This document shows, piece after piece, positions 240 to 4,601 of a stretch of 23,114 nucleotides of DNA (position 1 is its first letter; each line of letters begins with the position of its first letter). Made by a program: the position numbers and the translations under genes. This stretch comes from a candidate division KSB1 bacterium (GTDB lineage: Bacteria > Zhuqueibacterota > JdFR-76 > DREG01), in contig JADFJB010000077.1 in NCBI GenBank assembly GCA_022566355.1, forward strand, positions 1 through 23,114, written 5' to 3'. The notes beneath the pieces were generated by a model. It ran no database searches. It was not told the DNA's origin and saw nothing but the letters and a program-made list of their open reading frames with translations.

Positions 240-1676
240 TTAATCCAACAGACTTTTAAACTTCTTTAATTCCTCCGCTTCAGGCTTCTTTTTATAGTAT
301 TCATCCAGTGGAAAACAACCTGATACAATGCCATTACGTGGCGCGGTCGTGCAATCACTAAATGTACGGCAAATTCGCTTTCTTTGCAGGAAATTTCCAG
401 CTAGAATATCTTGAACAATTTCAGGATATGTCAGAACCATCCTTCCGATACCAACAAAATCCGCTTTGGCATATCGAACAACATTTTGTGCTACGTTGGG
501 CAGCCATTCCTGCAAATAACTATATCCCGATCCTACGATAACCAAATCCGGAAACTCACTTTTTAATTCTGCCGTGACTTGAATTTGTCTTGCAACACCG
601 ACTAAAGGATCTTCAGGAGGAAAATATCCGTCAGACGGTGGAAAAAAAGCTGGTCTCTGAATATGGGGATTATAATACGGGCTGCCTGCTGAAATGCAAA
701 CCAACTGGATTTCTAAAGAACATAACAGCTGCAGAAATTTTCGTGGCTCCGTTAAGTCTATCCCAACGCCTGATTTGTCTCCCCCGAAAGCATAACAGTA
801 ACTCTCCTTTGGAACAGGCTCAGGCTCACCGACATTTTCAGCGCCTGCTCTAAACGGAATCCAATCAAAGGCACTTAAACGGACACCGATTTCAAGACCC
901 GGAGCTTCAGTTCTAATTCCGGAGACAATCTCACGCAGGAATCTGGTTCGATTCTCAAAACTCCCGCCAAAGGGACCTTTTCGATCCATGGCGCTAAGAA
1001 ATTCATGACCTAAATATCCATGGCAGTGTTTGATATCCACAAAATTGAATCCAGCCTTTTGAGCCAATACAGCTGCTTGAACAAAATCATCAATGAGTTG
1101 TTTGATTTCGTTATCACTCAATACGGGTTCCTGATCCTGTAATCCAAATTTCCGATTTAAAACAGAATGATTATAAAGAATCTTCGGTTCCAGTCTGTCT
1201 TTAAGATTTGGTTTCGCAAATCGACCGGAATGGGTTAACTGCAACCCAATAAACAGATTTTCGGTAGCCCCTATATGCTGTCTGTGCTCATCGACCAGGT
1301 TCTGGCGTAAATCGGCAATATCTTTAAGATTGTTTTCATAAATCATCAGCTGATTTGGATTTGCCCGGCCGTCATGGCGTACGGCAACTGCTTCCCCACC
1401 CCAAATCAATTTAGCACCACTCATCCCAAAACGACGCCATCTTCTCTTCGTGGTTTCTGATGGGCAACCATCAGGTGTCCCATCCCAACCTTCCATAGGC
1501 AAAATAGCGAAACGGTTTCCGATCTTGAAGCCATTTGATAATGTTACCGATTGGGCTAATGGAGCTTTTGGGCCATCTTGCAAACTCTCATCAAATGGCA
1601 GTTCAATCCCCAATTCTGAAAGGTACTCCTTAAAGTCTGTCGCGGTTTTTAGAGAAGCTATTTTCCTGTATTTCAT
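240..1676 (-). CDS. NADH:flavin oxidoreductase, Old Yellow Enzyme family
   Basis: This is a 478-residue single-domain FMN-dependent TIM-barrel oxidoreductase of the OYE/2,4-dienoyl-CoA reductase group, expected to reduce an activated C=C bond with NAD(P)H in the cytoplasm. Visible family signatures are the strand [13 protein letters not shown] near residues 143-155, the active-site stretch [13 protein letters not shown], then [13 protein letters not shown], and VGIGR near the C-terminal phosphate-binding end. There is no C-terminal FAD/NAD(P)H domain. The tail carries Cys436, Cys442 and Cys454 (C-x5-C-x11-C), reminiscent of, but not matching, the Fe-S cysteine cluster of dienoyl-CoA reductases. 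The ATG overlaps the TGA of the decayed aldolase upstream (ATGA), so it was once translationally coupled to kdgK-eda. The true substrate is unknown; a role in uronate metabolism is inferred only from the neighbours. Confidence 0.85.
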
Positions 1677-1877
1677 TTTTCTCTGATTTCAGCAATCCAT
1701 TCCAGCACCTCTTTTACTTGTGATGCAATGGCTTTATAATTTTTGCTTTGTACAAAATCATTTTTTATGAGTCTACTGCCCATCCCGACACAAACAGCAC
1801 CCGCATCAATCCATGATTGCACACTTTCTTTTACTTATTATTGTATTCAAAACTGTTAATCTGTCAAATGCTGCCAT
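1673..1877 (-). pseudogene. eda: KDPG/KHG aldolase relic with internal deletion
   Basis: The ATG at 1877 opens MAAFDRLTVLNTII, a typical aldolase N-terminus, but after about 16 codons the frame runs into a stop (MAAF... ends after 23 codons). In another frame, a stretch beginning KESVQ continues as SWIDAGAVCVGMGSRLI and runs about 50 codons to the TGA at 1673-1675. That stretch is the C-terminal phosphate-binding strand and last helix of 2-dehydro-3-deoxy-phosphogluconate aldolase. Intact enzymes have about 210 residues, so roughly 140-150 residues including the catalytic lysine are missing at a junction near 1822-1832. The stop overlaps the ATG of the flavin oxidoreductase. The enzyme would have split KDPG to pyruvate and glyceraldehyde-3-phosphate, after kdgK. 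Identification is from remembered family motifs. Confidence 0.82.
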
Positions 1878-1909
1878 AGTTCTCTATCCTATTTAATTTA
1901 TTATTAAGA

Positions 1910-2045
1910 TCAACGACTCACTCGCCCCGATGCATCACCATACATTAATTTTTCTACCTCCGCAACACTCACAAGATTAAAATCACCCCAGATCGAGCGG
2001 GGATAATCGCATCATGATTTCGCCAAATGTAACAATTGATTTCAT
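1910..2045 (-). pseudogene. kdgK: 2-keto-3-deoxygluconate kinase relic with internal deletion
   Basis: The ATG at 2045 starts MKSIVTFGEIMMRLSP, the characteristic N-terminus of PfkB-family KDG kinases. The same frame hits TGA four codons later. A second frame then reads GDFNLVSVAEVEKLM and ends DASGRVSR at the TGA at 1910-1912, the usual C-terminus of the same kinase. Intact members have about 340 residues; about 50 codons remain, so nearly 290 residues, including substrate and ATP sites, are gone. The junction lies near 1994-1999. The gene lies 32 bases upstream of the aldolase relic, the normal kdgK-eda order. The enzyme would have phosphorylated KDG derived from uronates. No functional product is possible. 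Confidence 0.8.
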
Positions 2046-2073
2046 AATTTTTATATAGCTGTTAGCTATTAGC

Positions 2074-2088
2074 TGTTGGCTTTCAGCC
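2074..2088. repeat. Left arm of inverted repeat around four-helix ORF
   Basis: TGTTGGCTTT at 2074-2083 is the exact reverse complement of AAAGCCAACA at 2332-2341. Extended to 15 bases (2074-2088 against 2327-2341), 13 positions match. Outside the arms, both sides continue with AATAGCT-like sequence, but the right side is interrupted by a 16-base palindrome at 2342-2357. The stop codon of the four-helix ORF (2083-2085) lies inside this arm. Confidence 0.6.
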
Positions 2089-2301
2089 TTTGACTTTGAG
2101 CTTGCTGATTAGGTAATTTATCATCTTTTGTTCTCGACTGCAACCCTCGGCAATGTTTGAAGGTATCGATATAGCAGAACGACAAATCTGACTTCTTAAG
2201 CCATATTTTTCTTCAGCAGGAAGGAATGCCGCCAATCGGTAAACTTGCTTAACGATCGCAATCCCACCTTTCCAAATATTCAGAGTTCTAAAATCTCTCA
2301 T
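2083..2301 (-). CDS. Truncated four-helix bundle protein (23S rRNA IVS family)
   Basis: The 72 residues from ATG at 2301 match the N-terminal half of the four-helix bundle family (PF05635, also encoded in 23S rRNA intervening sequences): MRDFRTLNIWKGG, then YGLRSQICRSAISIP and SNIAEGCSRE. Family members usually have about 115-125 residues; here the match stops just after the AEGCSRE motif. The last ten residues look like translated intergenic sequence, with the stop inside an inverted-repeat arm. A TTG 24 bases upstream is also in frame, but MRDF is the conserved start; no clear Shine-Dalgarno is present for either. The ORF separates the GH88 gene from the kdgK relic. The family has no settled biochemical function, and this copy is probably non-functional. 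Confidence 0.7.
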   Translation of the reverse strand: MRDFRTLNIWKGGIAIVKQVYRLAAFLPAEEKYGLRSQICRSAISIPSNIAEGCSREQKMINYLISKLKVKG

Positions 2302-2326
2302 TGAGTGCAACCAATTTATGAACAAT

Positions 2327-2341
2327 GGCCAAAAGCCAACA
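2327..2341. repeat. Right arm of inverted repeat around four-helix ORF
   Basis: This is the partner of 2074-2088: 13 of 15 positions pair, including a perfect 10-base core. It lies 26 bases before the ATG of the four-helix ORF, so the ORF is enclosed by the two arms. Confidence 0.6.
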
Positions 2342-2357
2342 TCCCGAAGAGTCGGGA
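2342..2357. repeat. Short palindrome TCCCGA-AGAG-TCGGGA
   Basis: A perfect 6-bp stem with a 4-base loop directly abuts the right inverted-repeat arm and seems to interrupt the longer similarity between the two arms. It resembles the short GC-rich palindrome at 127-139. No T-run follows, so it is unlikely to be an intrinsic terminator for the GH88 gene, which ends at 2382. Confidence 0.5.
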
Positions 2358-2381
2358 CAATAGCTGAATAGTTACTATTTC

Positions 2382-3485
2382 CTATATTTCATTTATTACC
2401 TTAGAAACTGCTTCAATAAAGAAATAGTCGCCCCACATAACGCTTTCATCGACCCCCAACCCCTTTTTTTGATGATAGATGCCATGTTTTAATATACCCT
2501 CCCAACCTGCCGTCTCAAAAGCTAAAAATTCAGAATTTGTAAGAGTATCAATTATTTTCAAGGAATAGTCACGATACAATTTTTTTTGATTGGGATCACG
2601 TGTTAGAGTTGCCAGGTTCCACATTCCGCTGGCGGCAATTGCAGCAGCAGAACTCTCATATTTCGTTACAGGACCAGGTTCATCCCAGTCATTGGGTGGG
2701 ATGCCGTGCTTTGGAGTTCGATGGATATAAAAATTTGCGCAGGCTTCAGATGCTTTTAAATATCTATCCTCTTTAGTAAAGGTATACACAGTACCAAATC
2801 CATAGAGCGCCCAGGCCAGGCCCCTGGCCCAGGAAGAATCACTTCGCCATCCCTGGTGCGTACTTTGCTTCAAGAACTCTCCGTTTTCAGTATCGAATAT
2901 CCCTTCGTGGGCGGCGCTGCCATCATTTCTAACTAAACGTTTTAATGTAGTTAAGCTATGTTGATTAGCAATTTTGTACAATTTTTCATCGTTGGTTTGT
3001 TGGGCAGCATAGAAAATAATTCCAACATTCATCATAATGTCGATAAAAAGACTGTTGGGTGCAATAAAAGAACAGAGATATTGCCCTTTTTCCTGAAATC
3101 TCAGTGCCAGAGTGCGTCCTGCTTCTATTACAACCTGGTTGATTTTTTCATCGCCTGTTAAGTCGTACCAGCGTTTCCAGGTGGAATGAAAGAGGAATCC
3201 CAGGTCATGCACATCACGGTCGGTTTTTCGATTCTCGATTAATCGTGAATAGCGCTCTGCTTGCTCAAACCACCAATGATCTTGATTATTCTGAAATAAA
3301 ATCCACAGTTGTCCACCCAAAAATCCCTCGCACCAATTCGTCCAGGTTTCAGAATCATGTTTCCATTTCCCGTTCATTGTATACATGGGGAAAAAGCCAG
3401 GATGTTTTCCAATCAAGTTGCGCAGCTGTTTTTCGGCAAACTTGAATGCAATGTTACATTTCTTTTTTAGGTGTTCTAAATTCAA
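2382..3485 (-). CDS. Unsaturated glucuronyl hydrolase, glycoside hydrolase family 88
   Basis: This 367-residue protein matches the GH88 (alpha/alpha)6-barrel. It hydrolyses the unsaturated uronic acid left at the non-reducing end of oligosaccharides by polysaccharide lyases, acting on its vinyl-ether bond. The two Asp expected in the active site are visible in DVHDLGF (Asp94) and LFIDIMMNV (Asp149). The aromatic segment GWRSDSSWARGLAWALYGF and the C-terminal DESVMWGDYFFIEA are also typical. There is no evident signal peptide, so it should act in the cytoplasm on imported oligosaccharides. The start is TTG at 3485, supported by GGAG at 3491-3494 with a 5-base spacer. A promoter lies at 3510-3538. 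Its product would feed the KdgK/Eda steps whose genes downstream are broken. Length and motifs look intact. Confidence 0.88.
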   Translation of the reverse strand: MNLEHLKKKCNIAFKFAEKQLRNLIGKHPGFFPMYTMNGKWKHDSETWTNWCEGFLGGQLWILFQNNQDHWWFEQAERYSRLIENRKTDRDVHDLGFLFHSTWKRWYDLTGDEKINQVVIEAGRTLALRFQEKGQYLCSFIAPNSLFIDIMMNVGIIFYAAQQTNDEKLYKIANQHSLTTLKRLVRNDGSAAHEGIFDTENGEFLKQSTHQGWRSDSSWARGLAWALYGFGTVYTFTKEDRYLKASEACANFYIHRTPKHGIPPNDWDEPGPVTKYESSAAAIAASGMWNLATLTRDPNQKKLYRDYSLKIIDTLTNSEFLAFETAGWEGILKHGIYHQKKGLGVDESVMWGDYFFIEAVSKVINEI

Positions 3486-3490
3486 AATAG

Positions 3491-3494
3491 CTCC
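3491..3494 (-). promoter_or_regulatory. Ribosome binding site deciding the TTG start of the GH88 gene
   Basis: GGAG lies 5 bases before TTG at 3485. No ATG or GTG with a comparable site exists near the conserved N-terminus. Confidence 0.6.
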
Positions 3495-3509
3495 ATTAAA
3501 TTGATTCTA

Positions 3510-3538
3510 CCTATACAAACTAAAATTAAGTTTGTCAA
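3510..3538 (-). promoter_or_regulatory. Sigma70-type promoter for the GH88 gene
   Basis: TTGACA at 3533-3538 and TATAGG at 3510-3515 are separated by exactly 17 bases. Transcription would start near 3503, giving a leader of about 20 bases before the TTG. It would drive the GH88 gene and, formerly, the kdgK-eda-oxidoreductase genes behind it. No operator is evident. Confidence 0.65.
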
Positions 3539-3606
3539 GTTTTTTTGCTAAAGGGTTTAACATCATTAGTATGAATATGTTAAAATTACACAAGTATTAC
3601 CCAAAC

Positions 3607-3634
3607 AAAAAAGGAGGCATTTCAGGAGCCTCTT
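3607..3634 (-). terminator. Possible weak terminator hairpin
   Basis: GAGGC (3614-3618) pairs with GCCTC (3628-3632), and read on the minus strand it is followed by six T. The stem is only 5 bp plus a G-T pair, and no minus-strand gene lies immediately upstream. It may be a remnant or chance. Confidence 0.3.
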
Positions 3635-3683
3635 GAGCAATATCCTTGTCCCCTACCCTAAAATCCATCATCCCCTTTATTTC

Positions 3684-3712
3684 TTGACTGAAACCATCAA
3701 AATTTGTTATAT
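3684..3712 (+). promoter_or_regulatory. Sigma70-type promoter for hicB-hicA
   Basis: TTGACT at 3684-3689, a 17-base spacer and TTATAT at 3707-3712 (or TATATT with 18) lie about 45 bases before the GTG start of hicB. HicB proteins usually repress their own promoter, but I see no clear operator palindrome; the short antitoxin here also lacks a recognisable DNA-binding domain. Confidence 0.55.
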
Positions 3713-3744
3713 TCAAATTAAATAAGTCTCATAACATTTAGAAT

Positions 3745-3748
3745 GGAG
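3745..3748 (+). promoter_or_regulatory. Ribosome binding site favouring the GTG start of hicB
   Basis: GGAG ends 9 bases before GTG at 3758. The in-frame ATG at 3743 overlaps this site and has no good site of its own. Starting at 3758 also gives the usual short lead-in before YEYTVIIEP. Confidence 0.55.
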
Positions 3749-3757
3749 TTCATCCAC

Positions 3758-3997
3758 GTGACACAATATGAATATACTGTTATTATCGAGCCAGCTGAAG
3801 AAGGTGGCTATCTTGCTCGTGTGCCAGCACTCGACGGTTTGACTACTGAAGGAGATACTTTAGACGAAGTCATCTCTATGGCTAAAGATGCCATTAGGTG
3901 CTATATTGAAACGCTTAAAGCCGAGAATTTCCCGATCCCGCAAGACTTCTTTAAAAAAGAGCAGCCTCGAGTTCAGAGGTTATCCGTCTCATTCTAA
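3758..3997 (+). CDS. hicB: HicB-family antitoxin
   Basis: This is a 79-residue (84 from the ATG at 3743) HicB antitoxin with the partial RNase H-like fold: YEYTVIIEPAEEGGYLARVPAL, followed by the helix DTLDEVISMAKDAIRCYIE. The length matches the short HicB class without a C-terminal DNA-binding domain. It should bind and neutralise the mRNA-cleaving toxin HicA. Its TAA is directly followed by the ATG of hicA (zero spacing), an order opposite to the E. coli hicA-hicB but common in this family. The reading frame is intact, whereas the toxin downstream is broken, so HicB is probably an orphan here unless it answers another HicA. Confidence 0.85.
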   Translation: MTQYEYTVIIEPAEEGGYLARVPALDGLTTEGDTLDEVISMAKDAIRCYIETLKAENFPIPQDFFKKEQPRVQRLSVSF

Positions 3998-4232
3998 ATG
4001 ACCCACCAGCTTCCCGCTATTACCCCAAAAAAATAATCCGTGCTTTGGAAAGAGCCGGATTTGTATTTAAACGTCAAACTGGCAGCCACCGGTCATATAT
4101 ACATCCAGATAGAGCAAAAAAAATTGTCACCGTACCATTTCACAACAAAGATTTGAAAAAGGCACACTTAAAAGTATTCTCCGTCAAGCAGACTCGACTG
4201 TTGAGGAATTCATTAAACTACTCAAAACTTAG
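3998..4232 (+). pseudogene. hicA: HicA toxin with two one-base frameshifts
   Basis: The ATG at 3998 reads MTHQLPAITPKK and then hits TAA after a run of seven A. Restoring one A continues as IIRALERAGFVFKRQTGSH, the double-stranded-RNA-binding-like HicA core with its catalytic His in the GSH motif. A second missing A, in the five-A run near 4155-4159 (KDLKK), again shifts the frame. Restoring it gives GTLKSILRQADSTVEEF to a TAG at 4230-4232. The repaired protein would have 78 residues, normal for HicA. Intact T-runs of seven to nine in mcsA argue against systematic homopolymer undercalling. As read, no full toxin is made unless slippage at the A-runs occurs. Confidence 0.85.
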
Positions 4233-4241
4233 AGTTTTTAA

Positions 4242-4427
4242 GCGCTCCAACGCTCTGGCTTTTATATCCACCACCAAACGAGCAGCCATGCCAGATCACT
4301 TCATTCAATTGAATTGAAACCAAAGGTTACAGTCCCCATTCACACCAAAGACTTACCGCGTGGAACGATAGCAAACGTTTTCCGACAGGCAGATATAACC
4401 CTAGAAGAATTTTTCTATTATCTTTGA
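4242..4427 (+). pseudogene. Second HicA relic, N-terminus missing
   Basis: Nine bases after the first hicA, a 61-codon frame without its own start reads ALQRSGFYIHHQTSSH, then KVTVPIHTKDLPRG, then FRQADITLEEFFYYL and TGA at 4425-4427. These are the HicA core and C-terminus, aligned in order with the first copy but clearly diverged, so it is not a recent duplicate. About 15-18 N-terminal codons are absent. The catalytic region has SSH where most HicA proteins have GSH; the His is kept. The stretch contains no good start codon with a ribosome site, so it is most likely a relic of a second hicBA locus fused to the end of the first. Confidence 0.75.
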
Positions 4428-4482
4428 TCTCCTTTATTGCCACCTCGCCTAAAATCATCGAATTAAACGGCCAATCTCAAAA

Positions 4483-4519: not shown

Positions 4520-4527
4520 ATGATAAG

Positions 4528-4601
4528 TGGCGGTTCAGGGACTCGAACCCCGGACACGCGGATTATGATTCCGCTGCTCTAGCCAACTGAGCTAAACCGC
4601 C
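4528..4601 (-). tRNA. tRNA with anticodon CAT (probably elongator Met)
   Basis: The 74 bases fold into a full cloverleaf. The acceptor stem GGCGGTT/AACCGCC has discriminator A; the D arm is GCTC/GAGC, the anticodon stem GCGGA/TCCGC with loop ATCATAA, and the T arm CGGGG/CCCTG with loop TTCGAGT. CCA is not encoded. The first acceptor pair is a normal G-C, so this is not the initiator type of many bacteria. CAT could also be tRNA-Ile2, where C34 becomes lysidine; base 32 being A rather than C is slightly unusual. A promoter and a terminator flank it, so it is transcribed alone. Confidence 0.93.

Follow-up and report, generated by a model that had tools for sequence, protein, structure and literature searches.

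Within the window, the 23,114-nucleotide stretch of a candidate division KSB1 genome analysed here, adjacent kdgK (2-keto-3-deoxygluconate kinase) and eda (KDPG aldolase) genes have each kept both ends and lost their middles. We consider it likely that a five-gene operon lost its middle three genes (a short-chain dehydrogenase gene, SDR, together with kdgK and eda) in this lineage by several independent deletions, as judged by comparison with an intact operon in G002, an assembly of the same family.

Results

All features of the locus lie on the minus strand, in the order GH88-family hydrolase gene (3485-2382), S23 remnant reading frame (2325-2083), kdgK pieces (2045-1910), eda pieces (1877-1673) and flavin-enzyme gene (1676-240). 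The genes on either side were described as intact in the earlier note, and both are indeed whole. The flavin enzyme (240-1676) belongs to the Oxidored_FMN, or old-yellow-enzyme, family (PF00724) and shares 70-71% identity with its G002 counterpart over approximately 416 residues; among named records its closest match, at 71%, comes from a candidate division KSB1 assembly, although very near records may be left out of that comparison. The GH88 product (2382-3485) is 72.7% identical to the G002 protein, which itself matches PF07470. On the plus strand (3743-4430), a HicB gene precedes a HicA gene whose translation suggests a frameshift past an A run near 4156; this interval also contains, at about 4270-4426, what reads as the 3' part of a second HicA, and a tRNA-Met (CAT) gene (4527-4601, minus strand) adjoins the HicA remnants.

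Two pieces of kdgK are present. The 5' remnant (1998-2045, minus strand) comprises 16 N-terminal codons, MKSIVTFGEIMMRLSP; in BLASTN, positions 1997-2045 aligned to the first 49 bases of G002 kdgK with 79.6% nucleotide identity over 49 nt. The 3' remnant (1910-1996, minus strand) comprises 28 C-terminal codons (1996-1913) and the stop (1910-1912), SIWGDFNLVSVAEVEKLMYGDASGRVSR, and positions 1914-1993 aligned to the last 80 bases of the same gene with 83.8% identity over 80 nt. Pieces this short escape Pfam, and the kdgK remnants are invisible to PF00294. The reading frame differs across the junction, such that translation from the 5' piece stops after 20 codons, and approximately 299 residues are missing relative to the 343-residue G002 protein. 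The two ends thus correspond to a single kdgK that stands intact at this operon position in G002, and the frame is broken, as expected of a pseudogene. Little or no shared sequence was found at the junction, as far as the orthologues allow this to be judged.

The eda gene shows the same arrangement. Its 5' remnant (1836-1877, minus strand) consists of 14 N-terminal codons, MAAFDRLTVLNTII, recognized by alignment with the intact eda orthologues of L088, L065, L105 and L106; its 3' remnant (1673-1831, minus strand) retains 52 C-terminal codons (1831-1676) and the stop (1673-1675), and matched G002 Eda in tblastn with 57.7% amino acid identity (E about 2e-14). At the nucleotide level the two ends align only weakly with G002 (BLASTN; 1846-1877 and 1767-1828). 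Both ends are again homologous to one intact gene in the same operon position, the frame of the 3' remnant differs from that of the 5' remnant, and approximately 158 residues are missing relative to the 224-residue G002 protein. Because the pieces of kdgK, like those of eda, lie in different frames, no fused protein is made from either gene and both are dead. The earlier note had taken the pieces for the true ends of kdgK and eda, with about 290 and 145 residues lost; the matches to G002 and the orthologue alignment bear out the identification, and the estimates were off by only about ten residues. Two separate deletions, one of the possibilities that it offered, are also supported, at least two being required here.

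The stop codon of eda overlaps the start codon of the flavin-enzyme gene as ATGA, an overlap also present in G002. A deletion reaching the 3' end of eda would therefore also strip the intact flavin-enzyme gene of its start region, and this end of eda is very probably protected by selection. Within the eda 5' remnant, a promoter-like TTGACA-16-TACAAT sequence (1840-1867, minus strand) matches 11 of 12 consensus positions and is a candidate promoter for the flavin enzyme; when the 369-nt region was shuffled 1000 times, 9 shuffles reached this score. We suggest only tentatively that, if this site is a promoter, it too would be kept by selection.

To place these remnants in context, the locus was compared with those of relatives. 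A family search with the flavin enzyme recovered contig C216 of G002, on which GH88 (281-1384), SDR (1390-2157), kdgK (2184-3212) and eda (3312-3983) are all open, followed by a flavin-enzyme gene that begins at 3983 and is open until cut by the contig end. An Anaerolineae assembly, L065 (DUEG01000032.1), has the complete order GH88 - SDR - kdgK - eda - flavin enzyme as well. These two loci, with both genes intact, answer the question that the earlier note had raised about relatives, and the intact G002 genes in the same operon position confirm its central observation that both window genes kept their ends and lost their middles. G002 is related only at the family level, with about 65-69% DNA identity over the flanks, and the true ancestral breakpoints are consequently unreadable. 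In five Chloroflexi contigs (L009, L010, L016, L017 and L028), GH88, SDR and flavin enzyme occur together and neither kdgK nor eda intervenes; the flanking genes can therefore do without kdgK and eda as neighbors, and the survival of both in the window is unsurprising. Among Chloroflexi, the GH88 - SDR - Oxidored_FMN block as a whole is conserved in these five together with L065 and L088, kdgK and eda lying inside it only in the latter two.

The SDR gene, which stands between GH88 and kdgK in G002, is missing from the window. In its place is a degenerate repeat element (2055-2375, minus strand) with a gene for S23, the 23S rRNA intervening-sequence protein (PF05635), which also replaces the kdgK Shine-Dalgarno region; G002 has GGAGTGGAGG before the kdgK start. 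The S23 frame covers positions 2-55 of the 106-position Pfam 23S_rRNA_IVP profile; beyond these, as other copies show, it skips to the C-terminal end, indicating an internal deletion. The DNA of the element matches other places in the window genome, G000, and its left end, GTAACTATTCAGCTATTRGC, occurs 21 times there at no more than 3 mismatches, versus once for a reversed control. Several copies possess inverted ends and 8-10 bp target duplications, with flank repeats TTTGAAATAT (C107), TAAAAATT (C81), GAATCTAT (C38) and about CTATAC (C171), whereas in the window copy the right end is decayed and a target duplication is not clearly seen. Members of the family with inverted ends GTAACTATTCAGCYATTRGC were seen in the window and on contigs C38, C55, C65, C66, C81, C91, C107, C134, C153, C171 and C174.

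Loss of the middle recurs among these copies. Numbered against the 410-bp copy on C91, the missing segments are 45-91 in C134, C171 and C107 (possibly one event), 95-285 in C65, 99-312 in C174, 159-338 in C66 and about 200 to 345 in the window; at least five different breakpoint pairs are thus found in G000, with both ends kept each time, although this retention may reflect selection on the ends or a search made partly from them. A lost middle with kept ends is accordingly a repeated outcome in this genome, not peculiar to kdgK and eda, which lends partial support to a general rule. Most other S23 genes of G000 are flanked by inverted arrays of 7-9-base tandem repeats, each gene having repeats of a different sequence (L109, L110, L111, L113, L115 and L119, on C79, C19, C1, C97, C6 and C112, respectively); the same scan found no such arrays at S23 genes L114 and L118.

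Values of pN/pS were calculated against G002. The kdgK remnants gave 0.106 for the 3' piece (28 codons, 96% amino acid identity) and 0.077 for the 5' piece (16 codons), the eda remnants 0.239 for the 5' piece (14 codons) and 0.391 for the 3' piece (52 codons, 58% amino acid identity), and the intact flavin-enzyme and GH88 genes 0.226 and 0.196, respectively; since synonymous sites are near saturation, only their contrast carries meaning. These values suggest that most of the divergence preceded the loss, and on these small numbers the deletions would be recent compared with the split from G002.

We also simulated the pattern. When two deletions of the observed sizes were placed uniformly on the kdgK-eda tract, both stayed inside the two genes and spared 15 bases or more of every end in 3.8% of trials; with the SDR tract added, this happened in 0.8%. 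Under random placement the two-ended pattern is unusual, not extremely rare; the low frequency weighs against independent deletions, but the figure is post hoc and ignores selection.

The rest of the G000 assembly (4.62 Mb, 213 contigs, 98.5% complete, apparently metagenomic) was searched for replacements. The eda family, PF01081, had no match anywhere in the assembly, contig gaps remaining possible, and is present in 30 of the 39 genomes searched around G000. G000 holds three genes of PfkB, the family of KdgK; G002 KdgK as query matched only the two window remnants and hence has no orthologue among the three. Intact kdgK and eda elsewhere in the genome, for which the earlier note had proposed a search, were therefore not found in this assembly. 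An SDR orthologue is likewise absent from G000, the best match being a 37% identical paralogue, and KduI was found neither in G000 nor in two other family members searched. The earlier note had placed the cut exactly at the step from KDG to pyruvate; with the operon's SDR also lost and KduI absent, so narrow a cut is not supported. An alternative aldolase was sought in G000, and the only candidate, one DHDPS-family gene, is most simply dapA. In a 320-kb sample of G000 stretches that includes the window, 85% of the sequence is coding and 48 gaps of 350 bases or more occur.

Discussion

We propose that insertion of the S23 element, or an adjoining deletion, may have ended useful expression of kdgK; its arrival is a plausible, unproved trigger, and the element would on this account have come first. 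The unused kdgK and eda genes would then have been trimmed by independent deletions needing little or no shared sequence, with GH88 and the flavin enzyme presumably remaining under selection. The 3' end of eda would have survived as the carrier of the ribosome-binding region and of the stop/start overlap of the flavin-enzyme gene, and the 5' end perhaps for its promoter-like sequence. The remaining ends may owe their survival mainly to chance and recency, the kdgK remnants having hardly decayed.

The chief rival to this explanation is that a metagenome assembler joined the ends of full-length genes and omitted both middles. The fragmented, apparently metagenomic state of the assembly would favor such an error, and two similar gaps within 400 bp are an odd coincidence; however, repeat collapse does not give junctions that change frame and, in kdgK, show no evident k-mers in common. 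The missing middles occur nowhere else in this nearly complete assembly, although an assembler that omitted them would give the same result, and the SDR gene is lost at the same place while internally deleted elements lie on other contigs. We therefore regard an assembly artefact as unlikely. Less probable still is a single process acting on both genes, whether a recombination that removes interiors or one complex rearrangement: the breakpoints differ in codon position and sequence context, and the junctions showed no repeat or motif in common. That kdgK, eda and the neighboring S23 element all keep both ends might speak for such a process, but internal deletion is expected anyway of elements with inverted ends. 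The earlier note had offered, as an alternative to two separate deletions, a recombination process or artefact acting twice in the same way; the pattern recurs among the S23 copies and is not extremely rare under random placement, leaving the need for a special process unsupported.

A different question is why the ends persist, and here the remnant stretch might have been retained as a functional leader for the flavin enzyme, with a promoter, small reading frames or a site of translational coupling. This possibility, which is compatible with operon decay, draws on the ATGA overlap, on the open and conserved 3' frame of eda and on the small number of shuffles that reached the promoter-like score. 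A structured leader RNA and an Rfam element were both rejected for this stretch: its RNA structure is not unusual (z -1.38), and only the tRNA was matched by Rfam in the window. Recent loss explains the conservation equally well, and we hold a retained leader function to be rather doubtful, though less so than an artefact. Operon decay by independent deletions remains our preferred explanation.

The kdgK and eda remnants thus represent a clear case of operon decay in an uncultured bacterium, an instance of ordinary gene loss, and they carry a caution that flanking genes alone do not prove the presence of a pathway. More unusual, and perhaps of greater consequence, is the S23 element beside them, in that an S23 gene resides in an element that appears to be mobile, undergoes internal deletion and lies away from the ribosomal RNA genes. 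It is possible, and we suggest only tentatively, that S23 genes of this lineage travel as elements, with inverted short-repeat arrays and target duplications, and that their insertion triggers operon decay.

Bacterial pseudogenes are trimmed by deletional bias, and the kdgK-eda locus resembles them in that its dead genes, from a pathway no longer used, have been shortened by deletions while their neighbors are intact; it is tidier than the usual case, in that two adjacent genes both keep both ends. The KDG branch of uronate degradation (KdgK/Eda) within a GH88 operon has the same gene order in the intact loci of G002 and L065, from which the window differs in the loss of the middle three genes. 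Like miniature inverted-repeat elements (MITEs), the S23 family shows inverted ends and target duplications of 8-10 bp at several copies outside the window, and it includes internally deleted members; unlike them, it carries remnants of an S23/IVP gene, and no transposase was seen or assigned.
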